Below are positions 1,511 through 56,825 of a DNA stretch of 64,000 nt, piece by piece. The stretch's first letter is position 1, and each line of letters opens with the position of its first letter. The notes under the pieces are model-generated. The model searched no databases. It saw only the letters and a program-made list of their open reading frames with translations, and was not told the origin of the DNA. The translations under genes were made by a program, and so were the position numbers. The DNA comes from Adineta ricciae (Eukaryota; Rotifera; Eurotatoria; Adinetida; Adinetidae), in the NCBI GenBank assembly GCA_905250025.1, contig CAJNOJ010000075.1:62001-126000 (forward strand), in the 5' to 3' direction.

Positions 1511-1899
1511 ATAAGCTACAAGGATGTGCTATTTCATGTCAACAATGAGAATTTGAATTTATTATTTTTGTATATTTTTGTCTCTTTTGGGGTCGTTTTT
1601 GTTTATTCTTCATGCGTGAGTAATTATACTTGTCTAGTCTTTCTTCTTTATGAAACTTATGTCAGATCTTTTGATTTTTTTTTCTTTTTACACGTAAACT
1701 TATGTCAGATTTCTCGGGTAAATTTTCAATAAAAAAAAACTAAGAATTTCTTTGTGATCACTAAACTCTAAAACTTATTCGTGAAAATCAATTTTGCAGA
1801 TGTTGAACTATATTGTCCGATATCGGAATTTGTCATGTCCGGAGTAATAAGCAAGTGACATCTCTCCTGACGACACGAACCATTCTCAAACCAGTGATA
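1511..1899. other. UNG 3' region and UBOX5 5' region
   Basis: No coding sequence is seen. It is T-rich, with an AATAAA poly(A) signal at 1728-1733 for UNG. A pyrimidine-rich splice acceptor (AG at 1798-1799) lies about 100 bp before the UBOX5 ATG and could be a cis acceptor in the 5' UTR or a trans-splice site. Confidence 0.5.
1728..1733 (+). terminator. Poly(A) signal of UNG
   Basis: Canonical AATAAA followed by an A-run, about 220 bp after the UNG stop codon. Confidence 0.55.
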
Positions 1900-2979
1900 A
1901 TGCTTGTAAATTTTTGTACAGCGAAATTTCAACCCATATTCGAATGTTCTCAAATGCAACTCGATGGTTATCATGCCGAAAATCTTGCCAAAGATTTCTC
2001 GCAAAAGTATCGTGTTTGTTTGAGTTTCATTTCAATCATTTTTCTTGTTAATAGCCACGGTTTTCTTGCTGATTCACTGCAACGTCCACCGATTGATATT
2101 TACATTCGATTTCCTCTGAATATCGATATCAAACATATTTATTTGGGCCCATCGATCGGTCACCATCGGTCGACATTGATCGAGTTTTGCGTTAATCATC
2201 AGATGATCGATGAGAAAACATCTTGGCTCGTCGATTCGTCCACTAAATCGAATCGCGTCAATTTGAAACAATTATCATTTCATCGAATAGCACAGATTTT
2301 GAATGAAAATGAAAATACTCAACGAATCGAAATCTACGATCATGAAACTGAACAATCCAATTCTAATGTATTCACATATCGGTTTTCTGCCAATACTCAT
2401 CTGATCAATTGTAGCACAATTAAACTGACAATTAAACGTGCCTGGCGTGTGTCTTCATGCGCTTTGAAATATCTACAAATTTGGGGATCGTTGTCGAATT
2501 CCATTCCCACACAATTCAAAACAAAACTCGAACAAATTCTCTTCCCTACACCAGCTAAACCTTTAGAAATCAATGAAACAACATGCACAAAAACCTCCGA
2601 AGAAATTCCATCGGACTTCTTGGATGCGCTCACATCTGACCTGATGTTGATTCCAATGCTGCTGCCCAGTGGTCATATAATTGACCAGACAACATTAGAG
2701 AAATGCATAGCTGAAGATACACGTTGGTGTCGTTTGCCACGTGATCCATTCACATTAAAATCGTTCACTGAAGTCACTCAGCCAGTTGTAGCTCAACAAT
2801 TAAAAATGCGCATTGATCAGTTCCTAAGTGAACATCAGAATGATCCAAAATATCGTCAATATGGTAGAGTACTTGATCCAAGACCAACGACATCTGATAG
2901 AAATATATTTTCATCGAAACGAAAACCGGACGATGCTCTGAATGATAATCAAGCGAAAAAAAAGCGAGACAAAGATTAG
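1900..2979 (+). CDS. UBOX5: U-box E3 ubiquitin ligase, RNF37/UBOX5 type
   Basis: E3 or E4 ubiquitin ligase of the RNF37 family, usually nuclear. The N-terminal domain matches the family (VNFCTAKFQP, then DGYHAENL, then RPPIDIYIRFP). The C-terminal U-box begins around IPSDFLDALTSDLM and contains the diagnostic MLLPSGHIIDQTTLEKC and DPFT segments. A 48-bp intron (2007-2054) can be read through in frame, but removing it restores the family sequence (SQNHGFLADS), so it is called as an intron; the product is then 343 residues. The ATG at 1900 is chosen because family similarity starts there. The tail is basic (KKKRDKD). A second, C-terminal RING present in some vertebrate relatives is not seen. 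METTL18 follows after 19 bp. Confidence 0.92.
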   Translation: MLVNFCTAKFQPIFECSQMQLDGYHAENLAKDFSQKYRVCLSFISIIFLVNSHGFLADSLQRPPIDIYIRFPLNIDIKHIYLGPSIGHHRSTLIEFCVNHQMIDEKTSWLVDSSTKSNRVNLKQLSFHRIAQILNENENTQRIEIYDHETEQSNSNVFTYRFSANTHLINCSTIKLTIKRAWRVSSCALKYLQIWGSLSNSIPTQFKTKLEQILFPTPAKPLEINETTCTKTSEEIPSDFLDALTSDLMLIPMLLPSGHIIDQTTLEKCIAEDTRWCRLPRDPFTLKSFTEVTQPVVAQQLKMRIDQFLSEHQNDPKYRQYGRVLDPRPTTSDRNIFSSKRKPDDALNDNQAKKKRDKD

Positions 2980-12752: not shown

Positions 12753-15700
12753 TCAAACGTTTGCTGGATTTTCTAAATGAAAATAATTTCTCGATGGCGG
12801 GTAAATTGGTGCTGACGCATAACCCATTCGTTTGGGTTGTGGTTGAGATGGACTCATTGAATGATCCATATTATGACTGTAGGATGTAAAATGCGATGAT
12901 TGGACGGTGAATGTAGATGGATAAGGTGAGCGAGTCGACGTTGGTAGAATCGATGGATACGATGTCGGTTGATGGTGTTTTAAGGATTGAGAACCATTCA
13001 TATTCGTATGAATGAATTGACGAGGAATGGGTGGATGAGATGATTTTTGATTAGTCATTGAGAGAGAAGACTGAGCCAAGGTAGTCTTCGGTTGATAATC
13101 ATGCGTACCATGAGATTCATGGTGTGTTGATGTAAAATGTTCAGATTTTGGTTTACTGATTGGCGGTGCTTGAGTAGACGTATCGAAACGGTATGGTTGA
13201 TAACCTTGCGGTTGTTGTGGATTATCCTTCGATGACAATGAGTATGAAAATATTCCTGAAGGACGATCGTTCTTCTAAATATCAAATTGACAATGACGAA
13301 AAAGAACAAGAGAATTAAAATTGAAATGCACTTTTTTTGATGATCGACGTGCAGACGAAGACGAAGACGATGAAGCCGAATCTTTCCGGGAACTAAAAGC
13401 AGCAGGCGGTGGTGGTGGATGAAATGCCGGTCGACTGTCATGAGGAGCTAACTGATACTGGACAGGAATTGGTTTAAATGTTCTGTTGCTTGGAAAGAAA
13501 AAGAAATAACGAACAAATGATTCTCATCAATCCCTACTTGTCTTCTAATTGTTCTTTTCGTTTTGATCTAAAATACATATCAAATAGAAACATCCTTCAG
13601 TCAGAAGAGCACACTTACTTATTCGTAAATAAATTTGAAAAGCGAAATCGTTGTTTTTCGAGTTTATTCAATGTGTCTGTATTTGTTGAATCTAAATACA
13701 TTATGCAATTGTCACCTTGAAAAATGTTGATGTTCTATTGAATTGCGGAAATGAACTTCTTCAAAATTTCCAACAAATTACTATCATTGGGAAATGAATT
13801 CTTACTCAATATTAGTGCCTACTGAAGTAATCATCTACATTAATGACTATTTCCTGTTAGACGAAGACGTGTCGATATCCGGAATGATACAAAACCTTGT
13901 ACTCTTACCCTCATCATTGAGATTGGAATTGTGACCGTAGGATTTGTCTACAGCTTGTCGAAATGAGTCATTACATGCTCGACTACGAAGTTTTGCTTGA
14001 CGTTTTCCTTCTCCGTCATGAATTGTTGTAGCGTTAGACGATTCACGTTCGTCTAAGATCTTCGGAATGCTTTCCAATGACGACGAGCGAATCAAACCAG
14101 GTGATGCACGATTTCTATTCGAAGTTGATTTTGGTAATGGTGGTATTGGTTGTTCTATTGAAACGAAAAACGAGAGAATTATGTTCATATCTCAACAGAG
14201 TCAAACGAAACACAAGGCATGCTCATATGAACTCGAACGTTTTTGTTTTTCAAAAACATGCATCTTTTTCGGAGTAGGAAGATGGTCCCATATCATTCAA
14301 AGGCTTTTTTTTTTCGTTGATGTAGACATGCAAAAGATAAACGGATATGGTTCGAAAACAAGAAATGTATATAAGACCTGCTCGTCTATTCACGGAATAA
14401 CGGCAATCATGATCTGTCTTATCGAAATCATTGTCACCATCATCATCATCATCGGAGATGTCAATGAGAGGTGTGAGAATTTCAATTGATGCTGCAGTCG
14501 ATATCGGATATGATTCTGCAAGAAGAACTCGTTTAAATTAATAAATCAATCATTCATTTGTTGCAGACTAATCGTAAGCAAGCAAAGTTTCGACGTACTT
14601 CGTTCAGCTTGTGTTCGACCTTCGTGAAATGATCGCTGTTTCCATTGAATGACTTGTTTGTTAGGTTGATGTGTTAAACGACGTTTCTCGGAAACACTTT
14701 GACGAAATAGAGTTTCACGTTCGAATGGATTTGTCCTTCAAAATTTCATTTATTACAAAACAATGCACATGTGAAGTGAAGAGTAGTCAATGTCTTACCT
14801 ATTACTATCGACGTCATCGGGAGTTTCTGAAAAAGACAAGGAACGAATGAGGCTGAGGATGATCGAAGAGAAGAAACTTTACGTAGATCATTTTCGTATT
14901 GATTCAAGCTTTGTTTATTGCCCGATGATGATGATCGAGGACTAGAAGATTGATGATCTTGGCTACCTGTCAAATTTCAAAACCTATGAATTCATCTTAA
15001 GTAAAACAGAGGCTTACTTAATTGTTGTACAAGTGGTTTTCGGCTGACCGGCGGTGGAACATACGTTGTCAGATCTAGTTCATTTTCATCCTCTTTGAAT
15101 GAAGTTACCGATTGGGATACAGGAAGTATTAAATCAACCTCTTTCACATATCTGGATGAATTTAAACGGTCTTGATCATTGTCGGATGTGTTTGGCAAAC
15201 GGGATATTGTTACTTTAATATGACCTGGATGTATTTCACGACGAACAGATTCGTGTAAAATGGTAGCAGCTTCTAAATTCGATATATTGATTAATGATGA
15301 ATCATTAATAATGAGAATTTGATCATTTGAGCGCAGTCGATTGTCCTAGAGCGAGAAAATAATGCACATAAAAATAACTTCGAAAGAAATGAACTTACTC
15401 GAGATGCTGCACCGCCAGTTAAGATGCTTTTAACAAATATTCCTAAATCGACTGATTGTCCGTCAACAATGGATGTTTTGCCTTTAAAAGTTATTCCCAG
15501 ACCGGCTGATGATGTATCATTCAATGGTATATCGAATGTCATTATTTGTGGTTTGTTTTCATTTGTTGTTCTATCGATGACAAATGTTCCATCATTTCCC
15601 TATCAAATACAAATGAAGTGAAAGAATGAAATGGCTTTAAAGCAAATCAACATACGGAATCTGTTGTTCCTGAACCATCGCATTGTCTTGATACACGGAG

Positions 15701-18373
15701 TTCGACTGTATCACCAACACGCGTCTCACGCAATAAGCCGACTGTTTCTTGCAATGACATTTGTGTAACATCGATAGAATTGACGGATAGTAATCGATCA
15801 CCACGTTGTAAAGATCCATCTTCGATCGCTGCGCCTTTTGGAAATATAGTTTTAACATAGATTGGATTAGCAACACCGGTAGGATTATCTCGAGACGCAA
15901 GTTTAAAGCCAAGACCATCATTTCCTAAAAAAAGAAATAATGATATTCATCAATAATTAACGTACAATTCAGTTGAACATGTGATATATCAGTCTCATTT
16001 CTCTTGACCTTTGCGAACTATCATATTTTAAATATCCATTTACAAATCTAACGTGTCTGCCATCGCGTGCATGATTATATTTCATTAATTGTGAAGAAAA
16101 ACTTGACATCAAGGTCGTTCAACTCGAGTTCATCAGTTTCCTTTAGTAATGTATTTTATCAGTGAACCTGCGAAGGCCGATCGAAGGATAGAAAACCTGC
16201 TCGCGCTCGATTTATTCATACCTTTTACTAGTGTGATTTTAATAATTTTTCCTAATCGTCGTGTGTTTAATGAGTTCATGTTTGGATCGTGATCAGTTGA
16301 TGAAAGATCGTTATTTTGATTGATTTCCGAGAGTGTCGTGCGTGGTTTGTCGGTTGTACGAAATGAAGACGGTTTCGATAGAATCGGCGGATTTTTCGTA
16401 GTTCGAACGATTTTCAGCTCCAATTCGGGCTCAAGTAGAGCAGTACGAAAGATTAGCTGAGCTCTAAAACGAAGTTTATATCAGAAAATACAAATAAATA
16501 TCGAAAAAATTCCTCGATTTACTTGTCAAATGAGCACCGTTCGATATTTATTCGATTGATTTCAACAATCCGATCATTAATTTGTAAAATACCATGTCGT
16601 TTAACTCGTCCATCAGCTTCAATATTTTGTAAAACAAGCCCGTTCACTTGTTGTTCATCACCATTGTAAGGTATGACATGTATACCCAATGGACTATTTT
16701 CTTTGGGCAAAATAATCGAGAATACTTTATCACCAGTTTTATCATCAATATAAACATTGTGCATTTCGACATTATCATCCGAGGATGACTTTTTTATTGC
16801 ATCTTGCGTTGGCGGAGAATTTGTTTGTCGATAGGTCATTTTGTTCGTTGAAGATGATGATTGATGAGAGATGGACTAAAATAGGACATGAGATAACAAA
16901 ACGAATGTTTATTTATGGTTGGAATCATACCTGTTGAGAACTGTAATTAGTATCGTTTTTAACCCGTAAAAATCGATCTATGGGAAAGAAAAAATGAATT
17001 TGATATTTTATTTATTCAAATCATATGTCGGATGTGTTTACACATCGATTTCTGCATGTCACGAACAAAAATTTGATTTCTAACGTCAAGACATCGCTTC
17101 GAGTCTCCAAGGAGTTCTATTATTTCCTCTATTTGGTCGATTTGATTGGCTTCAATCGACGGGCAAGATATAGTAAAATTAATCTTCAACAAAGAACAAT
17201 ATTACACATTCTCTATCGGTAATTTGATAATGTGCTGCTCGACAATATTGTAACACGATATCAGAGTGGACTCTCTGAAAATTTCTCGCATGCTGCTCAT
17301 TATTTAAACGATTACATACAGGTTTGTTTCTTTGTTTGAGTAATATGAGGCGAGTTAGTAGGTAATTTTCAAATTCTCTTCTTATTCTGTCCAACGAGAT
17401 AAAATTGGGCTCGATGATGTTTATACAAAGCGCGGTCAAATATAGTAACAATCAATCATCAATAAAAACGTCTCTCAATCATGTGCGAAATTCATTAGGT
17501 TAATCTTTTATGATCGTCTTTCTTGTAAAAGGAAAAGCCTAGTCTACGTTTTTACTTCTTTCTATCTCATTAACCTGATGTAAGAGCAGTTTAATTCACT
17601 TTCAGGGACAGCTATTTTTTATGACAACGCTCAAATGTAATCACACCTATCTCATTCATCAACCGTCACGCACATACACACGTACAGATAGGGTGGACTC
17701 GAATTTCTTCATCATCGTTCACTTTGCCTGTTGTTCAATGCTCTTGACATGAACATGATGTACAAGTTCAAATTTCGTTCTCTTCGCAGGTTTTATTGTT
17801 CGAATTCAAAGAGTGATAAGAGATGTGAAACGACCTACTTCGCAGATCAGCGTCAGTTACAATCACTTCATGACGATTTGTTGAAGATGGAATCATTAAA
17901 CGATCGTGTTCGGACAAACTTGATGAAAGATTAGAACTAGTTACACTTGAAGATAATTCTCCATTGCTATTCATTGTTGGCGGGGTATATAATGGATAAG
18001 TTGATTGATGAGAATCAATAATAGCGAATAACTAAAAGAATTTCAGATGAAATTCATGTTATTAATCATACGAATTAATTACTTCTTCTCGGTCATCGAC
18101 TACATCGCACACACGATCATCAGAATCGACGACAGCGCCATTATTTAATCGTAAGTGAACTTGATCACTGTTTAAAATTGGACCACTATTGTATGACTAG
18201 CAAGAGAGCAAAGCAAATGTTTTACTGACATGTTAACGTGTGAATGTCTTCTTGCGTACTAGTTTGGAATATTTAGTTGTTGCTGAGTGAATCAATTCAC
18301 GTATGGATATATCGCCATCTAAACCACATGGTACGACAACTTTCTTCTCGCCAAAATTGACAATAACTTTCAT
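12753..18373 (-). CDS. PARD3: PAR-3 polarity scaffold (PARD3 homologue)
   Basis: Scaffold of the PAR-3/PAR-6/aPKC complex at the apical or junctional cortex. The first exon encodes the oligomerising N-terminal CR1 domain (MKVIVNFGEKKVVVPCG at 18373, later RVCDVVDDREELFAIID). Three PDZ domains follow: PDZ1 (NSPLGIHVIPYNG, near 16500-16720), PDZ2 (GLGFKLASRDNPTG, near 15660-15920) and PDZ3 (GLGITFKGKT, near 15210-15545). After these come FRQSVSEKRR and the aPKC-binding CR3 segment ACNDSFRQAVDKSYG, whose serine is the conserved aPKC target. The C-terminus is Ser/Pro/His-rich and disordered, ending at 12753. Most introns are short; one of about 860 bp (16982-17846) and one of about 290 bp (before PDZ2) are longer. 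Three-PDZ order plus CR1 and CR3 make the call firm; exact exon ends in the tail are less certain. Confidence 0.95.
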
Positions 18374-20249
18374 TGAGAAATTTTTCACAAACAAACAGCT
18401 AATGAAGAAATTTGTAGTTTTATATAGATCATCTCTGTAAAACTAAAAGAAATCGAAATAAAAGAAAAACGTCAAGAAGAAGAAGAATGATGATGATGAT
18501 TTCGACGACATACATGAGAAGGAAGAAACGAAGAACGAGTAGTAGAAAAAAAAACGAAAGAGAGAAAGAAAATGAGCAATACTTTCTTCTGCTGTACATA
18601 TATGTATCTGTATGCAGGCGTATAAACGGCGCCGTCCATCTCTCGTGAGGAGGGAACAAACTAGTGGGAGATCGATCAATTGGTCCTATCGAAAGGAAGA
18701 ATGTAACTGCATGCATGTATGTCTACACGTATGGTTTCAATACGCTCGTCAAATCGTTCTCATTTAGAATAATGGAAAGATAATTATATACATAAATTGA
18801 TATAGTTATAAACAAGACAGTGTATAAAAATAGTGATATGATACGCTGTGTTTTATAGTAACTTACAGAGAGGGCTTGATGATTATTATCATGAGCGATC
18901 GAAAGGAAAAAGGCAGAAGTAGGCAAAATAGGTGCGTAGAAAGAAAAAGAACAGCAAGAAAGCAACGACAGAATGGACAAAAGAAAAACAAAGGTAAAGT
19001 TTGATTGGTTTAAATTTAGACTAGTTATCTGTCAAAACGAAAAGAAAACAAAATGGCGAACGCCGTAGACACATATAACGAAGCGAAACTGCATTTTCAG
19101 TAACATGTGTTTGTTATGTTTCATGGTTCAAAAAACATCTTGCCAATCTATATATGTTTATCGTACACTCGACACTTTTTATTCAATATTCCTTTTGCAC
19201 ATATTCACCGTTATCTATTAAGAGATTTCACAGCTATTTATTGAATTCACCGTATAAGTTCGTCTTTTAAATCAGCTTTAGCTTGACGAGCTGTACAAGA
19301 ATTTTACTAAATTGAAGCATTACTATTTTTATTACCGCGATACAAAGCGATAATAACATGCAGAATTCCATATGAAGTGTATTTATATATAAATGCTTCA
19401 CATGACTTTCAGAACTGCTCAGTTCTTCAACTGTTTCAAGTGTATCATACACCGTTGGCCGAAATTGTATATATTCGCAGTGCTCTTTAAACCTGTAAGG
19501 TGTAAAAAGCTGAAAATAATTCACAGAGAACCGCGGATCCAAACATGATTTCCGCAGTCAACGAAAAACTATGTGTCATTTCATAGTCAAACATAGATTT
19601 CAGGATGACACTCAGTTTCTAATTACATCTTCAGTCATACTGTTTAACTTGCTTTCAATTAGTGGAAATCAGCTGAAATAAAAAATGCGATTGAAAATCA
19701 AGAGATCAAAAAAATCACTTTGTTCCCTTTTGGGAATCTTTTTATATCAGACTGGCATATAAGGAATGCCCACTGCTATAACATTCCTTAGCACTAGACA
19801 TCAACTCAATTTTTAAATTTGTTCGAATTTCATCTACTCACCTGATTCGAAGTGTTTAAAACTCTGTAAAGTTTTGAACAACGAAGCGAAGTTTATCAAA
19901 GGTAGAGAGTCGATATCACTGAGAGATGTCCCCATATAGTGAATGGTAAAATAAAGTAACATTGCATACACATTCTAAATTGTGTATACGTGTGTTAAAC
20001 AATCCGATTTTTATTCGTGCAACAAATAAAATCGTTTGGTTTTGACAATAATGCTTTCATCTTATTTTCGAGCATCAATGTACAAAATGTAGTGAAATAT
20101 ATAGGTCACGAATCTTGAATAGAATAGTGAATCAGGAGAAGGTGATTGGTCTTTTTTCGTAGCGACGCGTATTGCATTGGTTAATTTACTGTTGACATTC
20201 TCGGTGGATGCGATTAGAGTCTATGAAAACACAATCGTGAAAACTTAAC
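18374..20249. other. Divergent intergenic region between PAR-3 and CBM21-USP
   Basis: The two genes point away from each other, so both promoters probably lie here. Two small hairpins sit close together: TTCCC/GGGAA at 19723-19736, and an 8-bp stem (AAGGAATG/CATTCCTT) at 19761-19789. No protein-coding exon was recognised. Confidence 0.45.
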
Positions 20250-21946
20250 ATGATTAATTCATCTCCAGTCGCTCGAGAATATTCTCTTCGAATATCGAAG
20301 AATGTGCACCATTGGCCAGATCTTCTTCAACGGGTTTATGAAGAACAAGTAGCTTTAGAAGATATGTTCACAAGAGGCACTACTGTTTACGGAACTGTAC
20401 GGGTCAACAACATTGCATTTGACAAACGAGTCTCCGTTCGGTTTACCATTGACCGATGGAGAACATACTCGATAATCAATGCACTTCATTCGATACATCA
20501 TGCAGATACTAATACAGATTGCTTGCAATTTAAATTACACATACCAAAAGAAGAATTACAATCACCGCCTACGCGTCTTTCATTTGCAATTTGTTATCGG
20601 ATTAATCAACGAGAATTTTGGGATAATAATTTCGGTGAAAATTATAATCTGGATGTCATCGAGCGGTAAATAACATCTAGACAATAATGTCTTTCTATCT
20701 ATGTTATATCAGTAATACATTAGATGCATCATCCAAGTCCTTTAAACAAGATCAGTGGTTGTATCGACAACTTGCTCAAGACTATCACGCGATTTCCGAT
20801 GGAAGAAGAGATTTATGTGGATTGAAAAATCTTGGTGGAACGTGTTACATGAATTCAGTTTTACAATCATTATCAGTGACTGCATCGTTAACTGATTCTC
20901 TTCTAATTGATCACCGTATCGATATGAACGACGGAACAGTACTGAGAGAATATGTGAATTTGTTATATTTACTTCGTTACAGCGATTGTCGTGTTCTATC
21001 ACCGAATCCGTTCAAACAAATTTTTGGTCATTTGCACAAAGCTTATTTGCAAAATCAACAACAAGATGCTCATGAATTTCTTCTCCTACTGTTAGATTGT
21101 TTACATCAAGATCTGATCCAAGTACGAATGAAAGTGATTGTAATCATATAAAGATATAAGTCCTTCAATTCGTATAGATCAAATCGAAGAAAGAGGATCG
21201 AAACACGTCATTAATTCTAGATTTATTTTATGTATGTAGCCTTTAGTTGCAAATATACTCAATGTAATAGTTATATTTTCAGGGTACCTACAGAACAACA
21301 ACGACATGTTCTATATGTAAAAACATGTCAATCAATTATGATCCTTTTCTTTGTCTATCTCTTCCGATACCATCAATGCATCACTGCACATTAGAAGATT
21401 GTTTTGTAGATTTCGACACTGATGAATCTTTAACTGACGATCAGCAATGGTTTTGTAAGATTATATGTTAATTTCGTCCGTTCATTCGTCAGTTTCTCTA
21501 AGGTCCAACATGTCAATGTCTATGCGACGCAACACGACGATTAGAAATCGAGAAGCTCCCGAAAGTTTTAATAATTCAATTGAAAAGGTAAGACGAAATG
21601 CAATAGAAACATGCTCGACAGTATCATTCTGTCAAGATTTGAATTGAATTTCGACCAACAGTGGGTGAAAAACAATAGTCATGTATATTATCCTTTGGAT
21701 AGTTTTGATTTGAAACAGTACTGTTCTTCCTCTTCATCTTATGCATTATATTCGGCTATTAATCATAATGGCACATTGAATGACGGACATTACACGACCT
21801 TCTGCCGAAATCTATCGAACGATTCATCCGCGTGGTTTGAATGCGATGATGATAAAGTCGAATATTCTTCTACAGATAAACTATTGATGAATACCAATGC
21901 CTATCTGCTTTTTTATATTCTCGAACGCAGCAAAATAAACGAATAG
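20250..21946 (+). CDS. CBM21 glycogen-binding domain fused to ubiquitin-specific protease
   Basis: The first exon (20250-20665) encodes a CBM21 module as in PP1 glycogen-targeting subunits (PPP1R3): GTVRVNNIAFDKRVSVRF, DRWRTYS and FWDNNFGENYNL are intact. A 47-bp GT..AG intron (20666-20712) joins it in frame to a USP catalytic domain. The Cys box is LKNLGGTCYMNSVLQSL, the QQDAHEFL box follows, the zinc ribbon has two CxxC pairs (CSIC, CPTC), then LPKVLIIQLKRFE. The His box is GTLNDGHYTTFCR, and AWFECDDDKV supplies the third catalytic region. Further introns lie near 21122-21178, 21233-21282, 21455-21503 and 21589-21638; the joined frame ends at 21946. All catalytic parts are present, so deubiquitinase activity with glycogen targeting is inferred. 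No RVxF PP1-binding motif is seen before CBM21. Two separate genes are unlikely, because the USP part has no good start of its own. Confidence 0.88.
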
Positions 21947-30200: not shown

Positions 30201-30816
30201 ATGAAACTGACATATAAATCAACATTGTCAGAATGAAATGTAACGTTAGTTAGTCAAACTCTATTTATCTCGACGTACAATTGATAAAGAGCATTGGAAC
30301 TGACATTCACTAATAATTCATTCAAGAGAAACTAATCGATAACGATCTTGATGACAAAAACATCAGCGATGTGTTTTTTTTTGTTTTTCTTTATCTTCTT
30401 GATACATTTCGTCATACTCATGCTTCACAAGTGAATTTTTGTGTGTATGTATCAATTACCATTGAAATTATTTCATCGGTGCAGTTTCTTCCTTTTCCTC
30501 ACCAGTGATTGATGAAAAATAAAAACGATTTTTAATTCTTTTTTATTTCTTCTGCTTCAATTTTTCTACTTCTCGTCATCTCCACCTATCAACCCACAGG
30601 TGCTCACTGAGAGTATTACTTTGTTTCTATTGACAAACGCTTTATTTTTTCAATTTTTTTTTCACATTCTCTCTTCGCTCTTGTACAGAGTTGAGCAGGA
30701 AAAAAACTAAGAATGGCATTTTTTTTTCAATCAATGGTATTCTTGACTAGCATAAAATCACTTTGCATGCACAACAAGAAATAAACTTGTAATCGTTTAC
30801 AAGAAATTTACTAAAC
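27270..30816. other. 3.5-kb gene-poor region with simple repeats
   Basis: It lies between two divergent genes. It holds simple repeats: (TA)n near 28797-28817, (CTT)n near 29270-29290, an AG-rich tract near 29508-29521, and several homopolymer runs. Short open frames (such as 29640-29828) show no domain and no splice-consistent continuation. No RNA gene was recognised. It probably contains the promoters of the flanking genes. Confidence 0.45.
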
Positions 30817-33004
30817 ATGCCGGAATTATTTACTCTGCAGCCAGCAATACATAATCGGAAAAATCCCAGCTTTCGACAATCGTCTAAGCTTCTCAATTAT
30901 AATCAGTCTACAAAGAGACCATCAAAAAATACATACCAAGAACGAACTGAGATATATTATGTACCTGAAACGACGAAGAATGGACCCATATATAATAAAC
31001 AACCACATAAATCACCTACACCCTCGGTACACAGCGATGATCTAATACCAGATGATGAGCCAGGTCTGTATCATTTACCAACTTCGAACCGAGCTAATAG
31101 ACCGACGGCAAGAAAAATCTATTATAAACCTCTCCGGTATAATCCAAAGTATGTGGCACCACGGAATAAACCACTCACGCCTCCAGTTCGAAAGGCAAAT
31201 CCCGCACCAGCACCACCGTTAACAAAATCTACGCGAGCATCGACACCACCGATGAGAAAGTCGACTCCACCGTCGTCGTTACCAGGTGTTCAGTCCTACC
31301 CGACACCCTCGCCGTCGCCACCGACTGTTGCCAGCTATCAACCATTGATTCTGGGTGCACCTGAGCTGTACCATTTGGACCATGATAAAGCCGTCTATCG
31401 TCAACCAACACCAGTACTCCAACAACCATATAAATCGCCATCGCCGTCACCAGAAAAATCTCATCGAACGCCGCCGCCGCCGGTCCAAGAGCAGCAGCCG
31501 ATACTTCGGCAAACCTATCCTCTATCTCTTGGCCCTACTGAATTGTATCATTTAGACCGTGTAACAACGAGCAATTCACCCGTTCAACCTGAACCGAAAC
31601 GTCTCGAACAATCGTACAAATCACCTCCACCACCAGTGCCATCGGCCAAACAATCTGCTCTGCCTCCACCACCATCAGCTAAATTAACCACACCACCGCC
31701 ACAATTAGTAACACCGATTAATACTGGAGCTGAATTGTACCATCTAGATCAGGAGGATATTGAATATCCGCCAGTGTCTGAAGAGCCGAAACGTGTAGAA
31801 TCATCTTACAAAACTCCACCACCAGCATCTGCTCCTAAACTGACTGCACCGCCGCCTGCCAGTATTGGACCAGAATTGTATCATCTGAATAAAGACGATA
31901 CTGTGTACCCAATAGTGTCTGAGGAACCAAAGCACGTTGAACAAGTACACAAATCACCACCACCACCGCCTATTCAAGCAATTTCTCCTCCACCTCAACA
32001 GCTGATGTCGAAATTGAATACGCCACCAGTTCAACGACCAGAGTTCTATCACATGGATTTCAATGGAGCAGATCCAGAACCCATTCTTGCTGACCCCAAG
32101 CCTGTTGAACCGTCTTATCATTCACCTTTACCATCAGCTAAAAAGTCTTCTCCAGTACCAGTCGATGTACCTCCTCCACCATCTCAAAATGGACCAGAAT
32201 TGTATCATATGAAAGTTGATGTAAGTGACAGTCCGCCAGTTCTTCAAGAACCACCACATAGAACACCTACTCCGCTTCCTACACCAGTGCTTAGTAAACC
32301 TGCTTCGGCACCACCACCACCACCATCGCCACCACAGAACAAACCCGAAGTGTACTACATAAAACTTGATGAACGACCTGAATCGCAAGCAGCACCCCTG
32401 TCAAAGCCGGCAACTCCTAGAGTACCTTCCGGTAAAAATCGAGTTTCACCTATGCCTTCCACAACATCGCTTAGACCAGGCCCAGAAATGTACTATTTGC
32501 AAACAGTTGTTGACGAAATCAGTCGACCACCATCAGTTCACGAAGTCGTTACACCAGAGAAGGCACCTACACCGAAACCAGCCACTCCACAACCCATTCT
32601 TACCAAAGCGCGAACACCTCCTCCGAGAGTATCATCACCGCCACGACCACGACGTCGTACACCAACACCACCACGCCGGCAACGAACACCCACACCCCCT
32701 CGGCGACGACCTCCTGTCGGACGCCCAATACGCACCGCTGCTCCTCTCGTAAGTGATACGTTAGAAATAACTATTATGTCTCCCTTTCATTTCCCTTTAG
32801 GCTCTTCCGAATCGTAAACCAAAGCGACCTGTTTATGATGATGATGATGATGATGATGTAGCTAATATTCCAACTAGACGGCCGTCATTTTCTACAGCGC
32901 TTCAAGATGTATTAACATCTGATCGTACTGTACCTTTATCGACTTCAAAAGCATCGGACAGCATCATACGAAGTATGAACAAGTTTCGCTTTCCTGAAGA
33001 GTAA
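30817..33004 (+). CDS. Proline-rich protein with tandem ELYHL repeats
   Basis: Not recognised. Two exons (30817-32748 and 32801-33004, 52-bp intron) encode about 711 residues. The body is about nine degenerate repeats, roughly 40-60 residues apart, each with a core like GPELYHLD (variants GLYHL, EFYHM, EVYYI, EMYYL), then an acidic stretch and a KSPPPP-type proline run. Near the end of exon 1 it is rich in RTPTPPRR. The second exon has an aspartate run (seven consecutive GAT codons near 32836-32856) and ends in a short mixed segment. There is no signal peptide or membrane helix. Such proteins are usually disordered scaffolds that bind SH3, WW or profilin-type partners; that role is inferred. 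The ATG at 30817 opens the frame cleanly. Confidence 0.8.
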
Positions 33005-39300: not shown

Positions 39301-43335
<4,035 letters not shown>

Positions 43336-46300
43336 ATGAATATATCTGGTCAACAACAGCCATCATCATCATCATCGAATGATCATATGACAACAGCAGC
43401 GTCAGTTCCTCTTCCATTAACACCTGATGTTCTGGATACCAACAATTCAGATAGACTTAAACATCAAAGTCAACGCCTAGTTCAACACTTGAATGGGCTA
43501 ACATCTACCACAATGACATCTACTTCATCGACAAATGTCTCGAATGCCAACCTATCAAGTAGCAATGGGCATGAAGCAACTTCGTCAAACGGAAGTAATT
43601 CTCATTCGCGTAATCGTCTGACATCATCATCGACTCAAACACTTCTCACCGGCTCATCTTATCCATCCAATAATGGAAATCTAAATGTTCCAAGAATATT
43701 TACCAACAGCCAAAAAGAAGTTTTAAGGCTCATCGGTCAGCATTTACAAAGCGTTGGGCTAAAGTAAACGCATTCATCTACAAACGAAAATTGAAACAAA
43801 CCGAAACTTTCATATTTCTAGTAAAACAGTTGATTTTCTTATTCAAGAAAGTGGTTGTGTATTAGAACATGAACAAGCATCAAATTTTCGAGAATTAATC
43901 ATGTCTGGAAAATGGACTGAAGTAAGTGATAAGGTTTTCTTCGTATACATACTCAGTATAACTTTTGCATACTTCTAGGCTCTTGTGGCACTTGAAAAAC
44001 TTAAGCAATATATTGAAGAACGTGATGGTATTCAAGTACGTTCATTCTTAACGAGAAACAACATATGGGAGTTCATCTTTGTATACGTTTCTAGCAAATG
44101 AAATATTTGATCTTGGAACAGAAATATTTTGAATTAATCGAAGATAATCGTTCAATGGATGCGCTGCAATGTTTACGAAATGAAATTCAAGGATTGAAGA
44201 TTCGTATTGAACGAACACATGAATTAACAACGTATGACAATTGTCTACTAATATAAAACCATTTCCTTTTGTTTGCCTAGATTTCTAATGTTCAATTCCA
44301 TGAAAGATATGTACAGAGCATCGAACTGGAGCGGTAAAGGTTTTGCGTCTCGGCAAAATCTCATGGAAAAACTACAAAGTAGATCCTACATTTTTTGTTT
44401 GAAATCATTCAACATAAAATGGCTTCTGTTTAGAATATCTTCCACCTGATATCATGTTACCTCCGAAACGACTCGAAACACTTCTGTCTCAAGCTGTTGA
44501 ATTACAACAAGAGCGATGTACATATCATGTTAAGCCAGGAAAACTGAAATTGGATGATGTTTCATTGCTTAAAGATCATGCATGTACTAAGTACGTACAC
44601 AAATCACTAGAATTTTTTTCGTTAAATCTAATTCGATCTTTCTAACTCGATCAGTTCATTGATCCGTTACGAAGTATGTATGTGTGTGTGTTCAGAAGAG
44701 ATCAGAGATGAAACCAGTCTGAATTTTTCGACGACGAAAAGTGGTAATCATTCATAGATGTTCAGTATTACTAGAATTATTGATACTGACATCTATATTT
44801 ACTGTAACATTTGCACACCTCAAGCACATTTTGTCGTAGTGAGTGTCAGTACACTGAATACACTTTTGCGGTGCTCGATAAAATGTAACTGCACACCTTA
44901 CAGTGTATCATATCAAGTCATATGATGTTCCGAGAGCCTCACAATAACAAGATGTTCATGTATATATAGTTGAAATACTAATCAGCATGTCTATAGAAAG
45001 GCGAGGTGATGGTGAGCCGTATATACAAAGTTGATATGATAGGAATTTTGACAACAGCCGAGTTAAGTTTGAAGATGGGCTGTAAATTACTGGATGAAAG
45101 TCTATCTATGCATTGATTGGGATATTTTCTTTAGGCAAACGTTTCCTTGTGTGACGATACAAACATTAACAGATCATTCAGATGAAGTATGGTTTTGTAA
45201 ATTTTCTCCCGATGGTACTAAACTTGCAACTGGCTCAAAAGATGGATGTTTACAAGTCTACGATGTGGACATGGTGAGTTGATCAAACTGAAACTAGCCA
45301 GAATACCAGTTTTCACATTAAATATCTTTTAGCAAACATACAAAATGAAATTACGCAAACAATTCGAAGGACATTCGTTTGGAATTGGTTGTATCGCATG
45401 GTGTCCATTCAGTCGCTACATCATCGCATGTGGAACGGATGAATGCAACGAAATATGGATTTGGGACGTCGAGGTGAATTTGTAACACAAACAACAAAGT
45501 ACATATATTCATGAAAACTCTCGTCTGTTTAGCAAGAAGAACAACGAGCACGTATGAATCATTCATCCGAAGATAGCCTTACTTGTGCGGCATGGTTACC
45601 ATGTGGTCAAAGATTTGTTTGCGGAGGATCACGTGGACAATTCTATTATTGTGTATGTGAACGAAAAAGGTGAACTAAGTGGTCGATTGAAGCTTATATT
45701 TCTAGGATATTGACGGAAATGTTATCGACAGTTGGGAGGGTGTTCGTCTACAGTGCTTACATGTTACAAGTGATGGAATTGTTCTAGCAGCTGATGCACA
45801 AAAACGTATTAGTTCTTATAAATTCGATAGTTTAACTGATCAACAAATGTATGTTCGCTGACATTTCCAGTAATAGAAAAAAGAATTTTGATGTGTTTAG
45901 TATTCACGAAGATCATCCCATTATGTCATTTACAGCTAGTAAGGATGGCCGATTAGGACTTCTTAACATTGCCACACAGGTAGAGATTTGAATTCGAGAA
46001 GAAAAACTTGGTAGCAAAATAAGATTTTTTTTGTAGGGTGTCCATCTCTGGGATTTACATGATAAACAATTAGTTCGTAAATATCAGGGTGTAACACAAG
46101 GTCATTATGTGAACCATGCCACATTCGGCGGACCTAATGAAGAATTTATTGCCAGTGGCAGTGAAGGTTAATATTATAATTTGATGCGTTCGGAGAATTA
46201 TCTTTCTTTCTCTCATAGATTCGAAAGTCTATTTGTGGCATCGTCGACAAGAACGTCCAATCATGACCTTTTCAGGCCATACACGTACTGTAAATTGTGT

Positions 46301-46478
46301 TACATGGCATCCAACATTGCCATTACTTTTTGCATCAGCATCTGACGATGCTACAGTTCGCATTTGGTCTACACCTGAACATCAAATGAAAACTGGTTTG
46401 TTTAGATAAACAGTTCAATGCTAAATTTCTCTGTCCTCTCTTTTAGAATCATTGTCGAGCAATGAATCATCAACTTGA
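43336..46478 (+). CDS. WDR26: WDR26/GID7, CTLH E3 complex subunit (copy A)
   Basis: Scaffold and substrate adaptor of the GID/CTLH ubiquitin ligase. After a Ser/Thr/Asn-rich N-terminus there is a LisH-CTLH region ([57 protein letters not shown], then [20 protein letters not shown]). WD40 repeats follow: [82 protein letters not shown] and [13 protein letters not shown]. These match animal WDR26 along its whole length. Introns are about 45-60 bp, except one of about 540 bp (44592-45134) between CTLH and the first WD repeat. The ATG at 43336 is the first in frame, but coding-like sequence (PPPKRAR, a possible nuclear localisation signal) continues upstream to 43201 with no ATG, so a first exon may be missing here. 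It is repeated in part at 51679-54501. Confidence 0.94.
44757..44793 (+). repeat. Hairpin in WDR26 long intron
   Basis: GATGTTCAGTAT and ATACTGACATC form an 11-bp stem with one bulged base and a loop of about 14 bases. The copy at 52790-52826 keeps both arms while the loop differs at two positions. Confidence 0.5.
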
Positions 46479-48809
46479 TAAGATTTATTTATTTATCTTC
46501 AATGCTCATTTTCTGTTTGTACATGGACTTTAACATAAACTCGTCTTATTCTTAGTTCTGATTGTCTTTACGCGCTACATCACTCTGTTCATTTGGCGTT
46601 GTTACTTATATGCACACATATACACGTACATGTTTTGTTTTCGTCTTTTTATCGCATTGTATGGGTTAAACATATTGGAAAATCTGTTTTCTTTTTTTCG
46701 CTCTATCCTTGTTTATAAATATATATGTATGTATGTATATGTGTGTGTGAAACAAAAAAATTCTTTGATGCAGATCTTCTCTATATTGAAAAAAAAACAC
46801 AAACAAGTTTTGAATTTCTTTCTTTTTCGATACGCCATACTATTTGATTTCTCCTATTTCGCTAACGTATTTTGTATACACGTAAAACACTTCCTTTTGT
46901 TTTGGTTCTCTTTGCTTTTTTTTAAATACTTTATTCGTGCTGTGCTGTTTCTTTGAATACGTATGCATAAAGACATGAAGAACATTGAATGACTCTTTTA
47001 ACGAATCATAATTTGTATTCGATGCTCGTTGTAAGCCGTTTCCTTAGAAAGAACAGTCATGTTTCTATGAGAGAAAGATCTCGGTACATCTCTTTTCTTC
47101 ATCACCATCTCGAATTAGACTAACACAATGCCTAGAATCCTAAGAAAGTGCTGAAGAACAAGATCGAATGCATTAGTTAATGTCATCAACAAGATTTATT
47201 ATACGTTAACTGTAAGACTTATTGTAACCGATAGTAAATACATATGAATGTCCGGGTTGATTTAATGTGTTTTGCAAACAAAAACAAGCGATATTAGAAT
47301 AGTGTATCACATGTAAAAGAAATTATTCAAGATGAAACAATAATGTCGTATGCTTTTATATTCGATGGTAACTTACTAATCGAAAGACGATTTTGAAGAA
47401 ATAATAGGGACACAGAACATATATATCTGCTGTTGACAAGAATAGTTATACTAATAGCAGCTGTTATATGTTGTCGATGTTATTTTATAATACATTATCA
47501 CCAATAGATTGTTGTCGAATCGAACAGACTCGGAATATCCAAATCAGAAGCAGCAATCTAAATGGGTTAAGTAAGTGCGAGATTGTCAATCTTGTCGTTA
47601 TTATATTCGACAAGGAAAGTTTTTTTCAAGGTACAAAAAAAAACTTGAGAGAGAAGTTTGACACTATGGCATTATTTTCATATCATTAGAATAATTACGG
47701 AATAAACAGATTCGCAAACTGATCTAACTTTGTTTCTTCAGTTAGTAAATTAAAGATACATCAGCTTTGTAGTTCATACTGTGAGATAGTTATGTGTGTC
47801 TGTTTGAGTGTTCGATGATTATTTTGATGATACCAGGTGGTGCGCTTCTTCGATATTTGTCAAGGACATTGTTTTGTCAGTGTATGACGATGATTGCATA
47901 CATATGTCTATGAGTGTATTTATTCAGTTTTGACTTGATTATGTCAAAAGAAAGATGCCTCGAACTTTCTTTCATCGATCATTGTGTTCTTTTTTTTTCT
48001 AAATCAATGGAAACGTATGTGACGATTGATCTGAAAATCGATTTTTCTTACTTATTAATATCAAGGATAACGATGACTGTCTTAGACAAACATGTGATAT
48101 TATCCCAATAATCAGTATGACGATCATTAATCGCTTGTGCGTCATTACTCTATCTTCAGATGAAACAGAGCTTGAAAAACGAGGGATCTTGATGCGTAAG
48201 AAAATGTCGATTTCCACATATTTTTTTTGACGAATGTAAAAGGGATTAGTGAGAAGAAGACATTGTTCTCTTTTTCCTTGCTTGTTGTTGTCGTAGAACA
48301 AGAATATATTACTCAACAATTATCGTGTAAGAGTTCGATTTTTGACATTCATCTAATCATATGGGGGAGCCTCTGGTTGTGCTTTTTACCGGTAGAATGA
48401 CGATCTGATCTTTCTCTTGTTTCGAGGCTAATTACAGGTCAATTATACGTTTTATTCTTAGTGAGAAGATCTCTTGAAATATAAAAATGACAGAAAAAGG
48501 AACAGAAGAAAAGCAGTTAATTAAATGCTGGTTTTATAGTTTCCAGCGAGAGTAATAGAACTACGTACTACTTCGCTATTGACGACAAAATGAGCCCGAA
48601 ATTGAATTAGATCCTTCTTTATTTGTTAAGTATATCTCTGATGTGTCAAGGACGCGATTTATATGTCAATCGATCAATCGCGTGAGACAAAGACTAACAT
48701 CAACTAATTGAATTCTATTTGAATTTCTTTCAGATAAGAGTTTATCTAAGAAAGATTGATGAAAAAATAGCTTTGTCGATGGTGACTAACATTCACAGTG
48801 TTCTCATCC
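46479..48809. other. 2.3-kb intergenic region, WDR26 to GPCR-like gene (copy A)
   Basis: AT-rich and present almost unchanged in the second block (54502-56825). It holds the WDR26 3' UTR, short TATG/TGTG repeats near 46720-46750 and probably the GPCR-like promoter. Small open frames differ between copies mainly by amino-acid-changing substitutions, which argues against coding. Confidence 0.5.
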
Positions 48810-50711
48810 ATGTTAAATTGGTTCTCTCGTATCTCAACATGGCTATTTATCGAAATGATAGCCACATTAATTCTAGTCATCTTAAATCTCATCATCCCGA
48901 TGTTGATGATATTTTCTTCGTATCGTAATATCGTTAATTTCTATTTTTCAAGCGTCGCTTTGGCAAGCTCGTTAATTAATACTTTATATCTTTTTTATCT
49001 CGTGCAATCACTTCGTTCAAAAGTTCTTCTTGATATCAATTGCCGTGCAATTTATTATCTTCAAGCGTCGTGCATTGTCGTTCTCGGTAAGTTTGTCTTA
49101 CATGATTATCGATGCACTAAGATAGGAACGGATGGAAAGAAATCAAGAATAGCTGCTCATTATTACTTAGAAAAGTTTCGTGTTCGACAAACATATCTAC
49201 TATGCTTGAGAAATTAATGACTATCGGATGAAGAAGTTTGTTGAATAGAAGCCACGTAATTGAATAAATCATGTGAAACAACGTTTGGACGAGAAGAATT
49301 AACGCTTTCGTATGTTGCAATTCGAATCAGCGACTTAGTCAGATAGAAAAGTTTGATAGTATCTTGCGAAGCCAAGAATTCTGTTAGTTCTCGATAAAAT
49401 TAGTATTATCATATCCTTGATCTTTCCTACAATATATCATACAGTTCATTGCTAATCTTTATTGATCGCTGTAAGCTATAATTTATCTAAGATTGCTAAT
49501 CATTGAATCGTTCAGTTACACGAATCTTAACTATTTCTTGTGATTGAATCATTTCAGCATATACGGTCACTGCAATGCATGCTAATTTCGTCTTATCTCT
49601 GTTTCCATCGTCGACTAAAACACAACGAACATGTTCGCAATCGTGTGGTGCCACTTTACGTCGATTTTTCCGTCGATTTTGCTTTTGCCTTGTCCTGTGT
49701 GTATGGTCATTTTCATTTACCTCCACGATTCCCCTATTGTACACAATCGATTCCAACGAAAAAGCACCTAAGCCTGTCTATTGTCCGGGTACCACGCAGA
49801 TCAGTTATCTCGAAGAATGGTTTGATCGGAATCGTTTCACTCAAACCGTAGTGTTCTATTTAATACCTCTGTTAATCAGTTCATTTCTAACCATGGTTGC
49901 CATTTTAAAGATTTTTTACGACTGTTTTCAGTATATTTTTTTACGAATCAAAATGTCGAGATGTTCGCCCTGTCGACGGAGATATGCGTCCTATCAAGAA
50001 CAGTCGGACTCTACATCTTACTCTGCAACGCTATTGCAAACATTAGGTCTTGCCGATGGAAGTGATATACAAAATAATGTTAATCGAACAGCAGCCGATG
50101 ACACCACGACATCACCATTAAGAAATTCGTCCGTTCAAGCCTGTGGACGATGGATTTCAACAACGTTTCTTCGTTTACTACTGGTGTTATCGTGCTGTTT
50201 ACTTGCGTGTATTTATCCTATTGCCATGCGTTTTTATCTCATTTATTTTTCTGTACTTGTACCCTTGGTATTCGCTGTGCTTAATTATTCTTTCGGACAA
50301 TTAACACCCAATCAAGAACAGCAACAACAACAAGAGCAGCGGCAGCAACGGGATCGCCAGGCACAAGCACAACCATCGATAGCTGTTGAAAACCAGCATG
50401 CAGATGTAACAAATTCAGTACCAAGATCGTCGATAGCGACGTATAGTTCATTGAATCTGAATGTTAGTAAATCACCAGCAACAGTCACACCTGTTATAAC
50501 GGATCGAGATGAACAATTTGAATTACGTTCATCACTGATAGGAAATTTCTCGACTGAAAACGAAGAAACCTCGACATACCGATCGGGTTCATCCACACCA
50601 ATATCTGCTCAGAACAATCGATTGACACCATCAGGACAAAACAAACGCAAATACTTCGCAAATCATCTGTATGAGAACACCCGAAGTCTTTTGGCGAAAT
50701 CGAATGTTTGA
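48810..50711 (+). CDS. Seven-transmembrane GPCR-like receptor (copy A)
   Basis: Two exons (48810-49086 and 49558-50711) give about 476 residues. Exon 1 has hydrophobic spans TM1 (MIATLILVILNLIIPMLMIF), TM2 (FYFSSVALASSLINTLYLFY) and the start of TM3 after a conserved-type cysteine (INCRAIYYLQ). Exon 2 continues TM3 (LAYTVTAMHANFVLSLFP), then TM4 (FCFCLVLCVWSFSFTSTIPL). A loop cysteine (KPVYCPG) could pair with the TM3 one. TM5 (FYLIPLLISSFLTMVAIL), TM6 (FLRLLLVLSCCLLACIYPI) and TM7 follow, then a long Gln/Ser/Thr-rich cytoplasmic tail. It resembles orphan rhodopsin-like receptors of invertebrates, but the DRY position reads HAN and NPxxY is absent. The ligand is unknown. The start is the ATG before TM1. 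The intron carries a 115-bp insertion missing from copy B. Confidence 0.72.
49112..49226. repeat. 115-bp insertion in the GPCR-like intron, copy A only
   Basis: Relative to the matching intron at 57087-57469, copy A has 115 extra bases. They are bounded by ATTATCG on the left and ACTATCG at the right end, which could be an imperfect target-site duplication. No terminal inverted repeats are obvious. A deletion in copy B is equally possible. Confidence 0.6.
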
Positions 50712-50758
50712 ACATACGGTTTTTGTTTTTCTTTTGTATTGATTTTTATTTCATATAG

Positions 50759-50764
50759 AATAAA
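50759..50764 (+). terminator. Poly(A) signal of the GPCR-like gene (copy A)
   Basis: AATAAA, 48 bp after the stop codon, in the 93-bp gap to the convergent small gene. Confidence 0.55.
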
Positions 50765-50804
50765 TAAACGAAAAATATGCGTACAGATAAAAGAAGTCAG
50801 TCAT

Positions 50805-51224
50805 TCAATACCCATCAGTTTCACAAAGTTCCTCCTGTGTGGTCTTCAATCGTTGTCGTTCGAGATAGTTTTTCAATGGTCTTTTCTTCCGTGTTGTTCG
50901 TCGAATATTTTCCGCTAAGATCAAATAATCCAGACGATTGAAATCGTTGAGAATCTTCGTTTTCGATTGCTGATGGTTAGTTTCCGTTTCCAGATGATTT
51001 TCTTCGTCGGTTTCATCGATTTCTGTTAACGTGACTGGTTGAGTTCGACAACGAAGGCTGTGACGAGAACGTGATGGTTGAGATGCTTGTCTCAACGGCG
51101 GATATTCGAGCATAATTGGTGGAATCTGTTCCAAACATGTTTTCGGATATCTTTCATCAGTAAAATGTTCGATATGCAACGAAATATCAATTCGGTTTCG
51201 AATGGATGAAGATGCCGTTGTCAT
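50805..51224 (-). CDS. Small orphan protein, about 140 aa (copy A)
   Basis: Not recognised. From the ATG at 51224 it reads MTTASSSIRNRIDISLHIEH and continues to the stop at 50805. It is charged, with an acidic middle (TEIDETDEENHLETET) and a basic C-terminal part (RRTTRKKRPLKNYLERQRL). There is no signal peptide, membrane span or Cys pattern. The matching frame in copy B is intact with mostly conservative changes. An upstream segment (MNKWCDYMLI, 51320-51291) might be joined through a very short 36-bp intron, so the N-terminus is uncertain. It converges on the GPCR-like gene, 93 bp away. Confidence 0.6.
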   Translation of the reverse strand: MTTASSSIRNRIDISLHIEHFTDERYPKTCLEQIPPIMLEYPPLRQASQPSRSRHSLRCRTQPVTLTEIDETDEENHLETETNHQQSKTKILNDFNRLDYLILAENIRRTTRKKRPLKNYLERQRLKTTQEELCETDGY

Positions 51225-51678
51225 TGTCGTGATTATTGTAAAATCATACAGATCTAAAGATAACAAAGAAAAGAAAAAGGAGGACGAACTTATCAACATG
51301 TAATCACACCATTTATTCAAAAGAACAAAGGTCTTTCATCGCTGTATTCATTAAATACACACGCCGATGCCTAGACGACAACGATGAATATGAAAGGTTA
51401 TTCGATGATATTGTAATGAGGTCGTGATGATAGTATCTTCTGTAGATTTGTGTTCTTTTTTTCTTGTAATTATATGTATTCTTTAATGCTTGTTATGTAC
51501 GCGTATTAGGTTTACGAACAGATGGAAACATGTCGTCCTAAATCAGTCTACTAGTAATTTCTCTCTCTCTCTCTTTCTCTCTCTCTCTTTCTGCTTCTCT
51601 GTTGCGTGAGAACAGAGAGACCTTTGTGCACCGGCAGTCATCCCGTTCATTTTCTTATCTGGGACAAACGGTAATATN
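51225..51678. other. Upstream region of small orphan, up to the junction base
   Basis: It contains a long CT-rich tract (about 51558-51594) and ends at the ambiguous base 51678. The same sequence follows copy B at 59143-59577 and continues there into unique DNA. Confidence 0.6.
51678..51678. other. Ambiguous base (N) at the block junction
   Basis: This is the only N seen in the window. To its left is the end of copy A; to its right, sequence resumes in the middle of the first WDR26 coding exon. It probably marks a contig join. Confidence 0.9.
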
Positions 51679-54501: not shown

Positions 54502-56825
54502 TAAGATTTATTTATTTATCTTCAATGCTCATTTTCTGTTTGTACATGCACTTTAACATAAACTCTTCTTATTCTTAGTTCTGATTGTCTTTACGCGCTA
54601 TATCACTCTGTTCATTTGGCGTTGTTACTTATATGCACACATATACACGTACATGTTTTGTTTTCGTCTTTTTATCGCATTGTATGGGTCAAACATATTG
54701 AAAAATCTGTTTTCTTTTTTTTCACTCTATCTTTGTTTATAAATATATATGTATGTATATGTGTGTGAAACAAAAAAATTCTTTGATGTAGATCTTCTCT
54801 ATACTGAAAACAAAACCAAACAAGTTTTGAAATTCTTTCTTTTTTTCGATACGCCATACTGTTTGATTTCTCCTATTTCGTTAACGTATTTTGTATACAC
54901 GTAAAACACTCTCTTTTGTTTTGGTTCTCTTTGCTTTTTTTTAAATACTTTATTCGTGCTGTGCTGTTTCTTTGAATACGTATGCATAAAGACATGAAGA
55001 ACATTGAATGACTCTTTTAACGAATCATGATTTATATTCGATGCTCGTCGCAAGCCGTTTCCTTAGAAAGAACAGTCATGTACTTATTAAAAAAGATCTC
55101 AGTACAGCTATTTTCTTCGTCACCATCTCGAGTTAGATCAACACAATGCCTAGAATCTTAAGAAAGTGCTAAAGAACAAGATCGAATGCATTAGTTAATG
55201 CCATCAACAAGATTTATTATACGTCAACTGTAAGACTTATTGTAACCGATAGTAAATACATATACATATGAATGTTTCGATTGATTTGATGTGTTTTGCA
55301 AACAAAAACAAGCGACATTAGAATAGTGTATCACATGTAAAAGAAATTATTCAATATGAATCAATAATGTCATATGCTTTTATATTCGATGGTAACTTAC
55401 TAATCGAAAGACGATTTTGAAGAAATAATAGGGACACAGAACATATATATCTGTTGTTGACAAGAATAGTTATACTAATAGCAGCTGTTATATGTTGTCG
55501 ATGTTATTTTATAATACATTATCAGCAATAGATTGTTGTCGGATCGAACAGACTCGGAGTATCCAAATCAGAAGCAGCAATCTAAATGGGTTAAGTAAGT
55601 GCGAGATTGTCAATCTTGTCGTTATTATATTCGAACAGCAAAATTTGTTTCAAGGTAAGAAAAACTTGAGAGAGAGAAGTTTGACACGATGACATTGTTT
55701 TCATGTCATTAGAATAATTACGGAATAAATAGATTTGAAAACTGATCTAACTTTATTTCTTCGGTTAGTAAATTAAAGATGCATTAGTTTCGTAGTTCAT
55801 ACTGTGAGATAGTAATGTGTGTCTGTTTGATGATTATTTTGATGGTACCAGGTGGTGCGCTTCTTCGATATTTGTCAAGGACATTGTTTTGTCAATGTAC
55901 GACGATGATTGCATACATATGTCTATGAGTGTATTTATTCAGTTTTTGACTTGATTATGTCAAAAGAAAGATGTCTCGAACTTTCTTTCATCGGTTATTG
56001 TGTTCTTTTTTTTGCTAAATCAATGGAAACGTATGTGACGATTGATCGGAAAATCGATTTTTCTTACTTATTAATATCAAGGATAATGATGACTGTCTTA
56101 GACAAACATGTGATATTATCCCAATAATCAGTACGACGGTCATTAATCGCTTGTGCGTCATTACTCTATCTTCAGATGAAACAGAGCTTGAAAAACGAGG
56201 GATCTTAATGCGTAAGAAAATGTCGAATTCCACATATTTTTTTGACTAATGGAAAAGGGATCAGTGAGGAGAAGACATTGTTCCCTTTTTCTTTGCTTGT
56301 TGTTGTCGTAGAACAAGAATATATTACTCAACAACTACCGTGTAAGAGTTCGATTTTTGACATTTAATCTAATCATGTGGAGGAGCCTCTTTGTGTGCTT
56401 TTTAGCGGTAGAATGACGGTCTGATCTTTCTCTCGCTTCGAGGCTAATTACAGGTCAATTACACGTTTTATCCCTAGTGAGAAGATCTCTTGAAATATAG
56501 AAATGACAGAGAAAGAAAGAGAAGAAAAGCAGATAATTAAATGCTGGTTTTATAGTTTCCAGCGAGAGTAATAGAACTTCGTACTACTTCGCTATTGACG
56601 ATAAAATGAGCCCGAAATTCAATTAGATCCTTCTTTATTTGTTAAGTATATCTCTGATGTGTCAAGGACACGATTTATATGTCAATCGATCAATCGTGTG
56701 AGACAAAGACTAACATCAACTAATTGAATTCTATTTGAATTTCTTTCAGATAAGAGTTTATCTAAGAAAGATTGATGAAAAAACAGCTTCGTCGATGGTG
56801 ACTAACATTCTCAGTGTTGTCGTCA
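54502..56825. other. 2.3-kb intergenic region (copy B)
   Basis: Counterpart of 46479-48809, with scattered substitutions and short indels. No coding sequence is supported. Confidence 0.5.

Follow-up and report, generated by a model that had tools for sequence, protein, structure and literature searches.

A predicted CBM21-ubiquitin-specific protease gene in the bdelloid rotifer Adineta ricciae, probably made by exon shuffling

In the genome of Adineta ricciae we identified a gene in which a CBM21 carbohydrate-binding module is followed by the catalytic domain of a ubiquitin-specific protease (USP/UCH). Judging from its sequence, this is probably one gene that encodes a 481-residue glycogen-directed deubiquitinase and that was made by exon shuffling. 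The gene lies at positions 20250-21946 of the forward strand of the window, by which we mean the whole 64,000-nucleotide stretch of contig CAJNOJ010000075.1 (assembly GCA_905250025.1) that was analysed. In the mechanism that we propose, a PPP1R3-like gene would have supplied the CBM21 exon, and a phase-2 intron would have linked this exon to those encoding the catalytic domain of USP8. Splicing of the first intron would unite both halves in one chain, the CBM21 would anchor the enzyme on glycogen or glucan chains, and the USP would then strip off ubiquitin, either from proteins bound to glycogen or from the glucose units of glycogen to which it is esterified. CBM21 and USP domains are each familiar, and we know of no protein that unites them. 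Among the papers listed in searches of the literature there was neither a CBM21-USP protein nor a glycogen-targeted deubiquitinase; the architecture may already be present in automatic annotations.

The predicted gene consists of six exons. Exon 1 (20250..20665) contains the start codon, a helix region and the CBM21 (residues 31-134), which scored 94.2 bits against Pfam CBM_21 (cut-off 28.9) and in which the motifs RVNNIAFDKRV, DRWRTYS and WDNNFGENY were found; following a stop codon, its frame is open from 20241 on, and the ATG is at 20250. Exon 2 (20713..21121) encodes a linker, the Cys box GGTCYMNS and the motif QQDAHEF. The 54-bp exon 3 (21178..21231) encodes IKSKKEDRNTSLILDLFY, exon 4 (21283..21454) the first CxxC pair (CSIC), exon 5 (21503..21587) the second CxxC pair (CPTC) together with LPKVLIIQLK, and exon 6 (21637..21946) the His box GHYTTF, CDDD and the stop codon. 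The UCH domain (residues 174-472) covers the full Pfam profile (1-254 of 254) with a score of 196.1 bits (cut-off 23.9), its Cys, QQD, His and Asp boxes (CYMNS, QQDAHEF, GHYTTF and CDDD) are all intact, and CBM_21, UCH and UCH_1 are the only Pfam domains of the protein. All five introns are of the GT-AG type, with lengths of 47, 56, 51, 48 and 49 bp and phases 2, 0, 0, 1 and 2. The initial annotation had described the motifs of both domains and a 47-bp intron that preserves the frame between them, and each of these is present in our model: the motifs are all in the translation, and intron 1 (20666..20712, phase 2, GTAAAT...TATATCAG) leaves the frame open across it. That earlier reading of the gene was right about the two domains and their in-frame join and missed one exon (21178-21231), which is added here. 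A five-exon model of 463 residues without this exon was ruled out by the alignment of the exon 3 product with NKSIVIDLFY of USP8, by the presence of the exon in the second copy of the gene described below, and by the UCH score, which rises from 175.8 to 196.1 bits when the exon is included.

Several other features were observed in the window. An alpha-amylase catalytic domain is encoded in two open frames on the reverse strand (39701-41349), so that a further enzyme of alpha-glucan metabolism lies some 18 kb away from the fusion, and a U-box protein of the ubiquitin-ligase type with DUF5918 lies at 1807-2976 (+). The window also contains a tRNA-His guanylyltransferase (Thg1) domain (60553-61524, +), a 674-residue open frame with no Pfam match (30793-32814, +) and an 8-kb tandem duplication at 43654-59582 (43654-51682 against 51679-59582, 94% identity), which includes two 387-residue open frames (49548-50708 and 57460-58620) with no Pfam match.

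A second copy of the fusion gene was found on another contig of the same genome, C60. This copy has the same six exons and equal intron lengths, including the 47-bp GT-AG intron 1, is free of stops and encodes 482 residues. The two regions are collinear, with 91-94% identity in two long aligned stretches. The C60 frame is open for 16 codons upstream of the ATG, and a further upstream exon is therefore possible. Comparison of the window copy (contig C75) with the C60 copy by the NG86 method gave a dN/dS of 0.29 for the whole gene (p 6e-9), 0.20 for the UCH part (p 8e-10) and 0.55 for the linker. The two copies fit homologs, because their dS of 0.16 is in the range of A. ricciae homologs (KS 0.135) and unlike that of ohnologs (1.267), values given in PMC5916493. 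Another CBM21 pair of this genome, on contigs C82 and C93, has diverged similarly (92.5% over 9.7 kb). That the gene could be a non-functional chimera, either decaying or created by the assembly, is suggested by its being known from one genome and by a genome-wide UCH search, in which no ohnolog of the fusion was found among the best candidates listed. Such a chimera is nevertheless very improbable in view of the intact copies on two contigs, separated by a dS of 0.16, and of the significant constraint both overall and in the UCH part.

We traced the USP half to USP8. The best PDB match of this part is USP8, and the genome's own USP8 gene is carried by contig C62, where a spliced model contains USP8_dimer, rhodanese and UCH domains according to Pfam. 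Both fusion copies join USP8 with a support of 100/100 when nine USP domains from this genome are placed in one tree; the tree comprises the two fusions, USP8 and the six loci, out of 12 looked at, that have the domain in one open frame, two of its other rows are long-branched, and its root serves for drawing only. The UCH domain of the fusion is 41% identical to that of the C62 gene over 331 columns. A spliced search revealed 11 introns of 50-63 bp in the C62 USP8, the last three of which have phases 2, 0 and 2 and lie before the UCH domain, after DLNQ and in K-R|F, respectively. Introns 1, 2 and 5 of the fusion match these three in phase, and introns 2 and 5 are, by our reading, at the same places as the last two; nothing in the C62 gene corresponds to fusion introns 3 and 4. 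The donor GTAAAT of fusion intron 1 is also used by USP8 intron 1. It is likely that fusion intron 1 descends from USP8 intron 9, although the first residues of exon 2 are only weakly similar to USP8. Acquisition of the USP half by retrotransposition was rejected because two USP8 intron places survive within the UCH domain. Since the USP8_dimer and rhodanese domains, both present in the C62 gene, are absent by Pfam before the UCH domain, the fusion is on its domain content a USP8-derived paralogue and not the USP8 orthologue. Horizontal gain of the fusion appears unlikely because paralogs of both halves exist in the same genome; neither exon 1 nor exon 2 had any relative on viral contigs.

The CBM21 half had been assigned initially to the PPP1R3 type, and the PDB search agrees with this assignment: the four chains matched are all from PPP1R3B, 3C and 3A, with PPP1R3B and 3C best. 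The genome contains at least ten CBM21 places, counted among the best candidates listed, two of which are the fusion copies. The nearest paralogs are PPP1R3-like and lie on contigs C81, C82 and C93 (38-39% identity); no USP was found near them within the 9.9 kb searched for each, and the other five places have no nearby USP among the best candidates of the genome-wide list. All three nearest paralogs have, upstream of the CBM21, an RVxF PP1-docking motif of the form KK[MV]VRFAD (KKMVRFAD or KKVVRFAD). As had been noted before, the fusion is without such a motif: none of the paralogs' kind was found in the 5.3 kb of the window that lead up to the CBM21 (15000-20340, +) or in 5.0 kb of C60. A looser RVxF pattern matched five strings upstream of the fusion, for example KVKF near 18991, without context. 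Because the UCH domain groups with USP8 and the fusion is without the RVxF of its paralogs, the exon shuffle apparently put the USP8 catalytic domain in place of PP1 recruitment.

We then considered how much weight the junction itself can bear. In 20,000 simulations of random 60-base stretches an in-frame GT-YAG intron of 45-63 bp was obtained in 35%. When the donor 6-mer was restricted to the ten found in the introns of the two genes this chance fell to 1.5% (20,000 simulations), and when the observed donor was taken as given an in-frame acceptor appeared by chance in 10%. With chance introns this frequent in the loose and the donor-conditioned settings, the junction alone is therefore no proof of fusion; it is strengthened by the intactness of the C60 copy and by the intron phases in common with USP8. 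Intron 1 contains a TAA (20667-20669) in the CBM21 frame and, at 20688, an ATG in the USP frame, and these leave room for two proteins instead of one. If intron 1 were kept, a 139-residue CBM21 protein would end at this TAA, the USP would be translated from the ATG of a transcript to which the spliced leader had been added close to 20680, at an AG, and there would be no targeted enzyme. Consistent with two proteins, the reading frame of the CBM21 exon in the C81, C82 and C93 paralogs runs into a TAA at the position where that of fusion exon 1 does, either as a true stop or as part of a splice donor, and the ATG is in the USP frame in the C60 copy as well. Bdelloid-type spliced-leader genes are also present in the genome: with a bdelloid-type spliced leader as query we obtained no exact match and 44 matches within two mismatches (41 with one), with none for the reversed control. 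Many of these copies, with T for the first G, are found on contigs C6, C8, C77, C79, C99, C146 and others, often in divergent pairs about 150 bp apart. In bdelloids more than half of the transcripts are trans-spliced (PMC1925144), which likewise suits the production of two proteins. Against it, just 18 bases separate the TAA from the ATG. Both copies conserve the acceptor at 20712 together with the open frame across the intron, and intron 1 has the phase of the intron that precedes the UCH domain in USP8. Moreover, a free CBM21 without RVxF would be without its known partner. The 47-bp intron is similar in size to the USP8 introns (50-63 bp), and bdelloid introns are mostly of 30-100 bp (PMC5916493). 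Taken at the level of sequence, a single protein is held to be more likely than two, and the production of two separate proteins is judged unlikely.

To characterise the sugar-binding site we used the 13 residues of human PTG that are described as contacting cyclodextrin in section 6 of PMC9582199. Residue mapping on the PDB alignment, without docking, showed that 10 of the 13 are identical in the fusion. The corresponding positions are N54, F57, D58 (Glu in PTG), K59, H80 (Tyr203 in PTG) and D90 in site II, and R64, W70, Y73, A113 (Cys in PTG), W124, N126 and N131 in site I. The same mapping gave 9 of 13 for the C60 copy, in which Y73 of site I is replaced by Cys, and also 9 of 13 for the PPP1R3-like paralog on C82. 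At the place of the WDNND/E substrate motif the fusion reads WDNNF, with Phe at the last position and the second acid missing; here human GL has WDSNR and GM has WSNNN (PMC4482762). The Cys and the Phe could indicate that the fused protein exists without being anchored on glycogen, its CBM21 either undergoing relaxation or serving a different purpose, for instance in folding or in binding a protein. A dN/dS of 0.61 for the CBM exon between the two copies, which is not significantly below 1 (Fisher p 0.23), compared with 0.20 for the UCH part, points in the same direction. However, CBM and UCH do not differ significantly in their nonsynonymous changes (p 0.19), the PTG contacts are kept in the fusion at least as well as in the C82 paralog, and the fusion CBM21 has the highest profile score of the ten places listed in the genome. 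We thus regard a relaxed or diverted CBM21 as quite unlikely, and retain the reading of a deubiquitinase directed to glycogen.

As to what such an enzyme would do, we put forward tentatively that it may be a dedicated glycogen deubiquitinase, an eraser of the ubiquitin mark on glycogen that removes both the ubiquitin esterified to glucose C6 by HOIL-1 and the ubiquitin on glycogen-bound proteins. According to the review PMC9527308, most of the DUBs screened are nearly as efficient on ubiquitin esters as on isopeptides. HOIL-1 transfers ubiquitin in vitro onto glucose C6, and that ester resisted Otulin and AMSH-LP (PMC9016349). Glycogen synthase is present in the A. ricciae genome; a search of the genome with the HOIP profile (PF16678) gave no match, which does not by itself imply absence. 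Neither of the two enzymes resisted by the ester, Otulin and AMSH-LP, is known to be a USP. Ubiquitin on or around glycogen is tied to polyglucosan diseases, namely Lafora disease and HOIL-1 deficiency (PMC13297497), and the glycogen-linked enzymes treated in the portions of the cited work used here add ubiquitin, no remover being named there. In 2022 it was still undecided whether glycogen is ubiquitylated in vivo (PMC9527308); by 2026 a first observation in tissue is cited in a review (PMC13297497). If our reading is true, evolution has put ubiquitin removal at the glycogen particle, and a CBM21-deubiquitinase would be a ready reagent for testing which ubiquitin bonds at glycogen are cleavable. 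The fusion would also be a readable case of exon shuffling via equal-phase introns.

Among known systems, the fusion resembles USP8 (UBPY) in the grouping of its UCH domain, in its best PDB match, in two intron places inside the domain and in the phase of the intron that precedes it. It differs from USP8 in that CBM21 replaces the dimerisation and rhodanese domains, the stretch before DLFYG is about 23 residues shorter and NLGGTC stands for NLGNSC. With the PPP1R3 proteins (GL, PTG/R5, GM) it shares a CBM21 bearing WDNN..G.NY, whereas in the fusion a protease domain follows the CBM21, no RVxF was found and WDNNF replaces WDNND/E. The initial annotation had also drawn a parallel with laforin and malin; the carbohydrate module of laforin is a CBM20. 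In the present genome there is little to support this parallel: three CBM20 places were found, all of them adjoining GDPD domains, and for this reason no laforin candidate was seen among them. In laforin-malin, as in the role proposed for the fusion, ubiquitin enzymes are recruited to glycogen by way of a carbohydrate module (PMC13297497); laforin-malin is a phosphatase and an E3 ligase, two proteins that add ubiquitin, whereas the fusion would be a single chain combining CBM21 with an enzyme that removes ubiquitin. HOIL-1/LUBAC likewise concerns ubiquitin on glucan chains (PMC9016349): HOIL-1 attaches ubiquitin to glucose C6 through an ester, and the fusion would do the reverse, should it act on this linkage at all.
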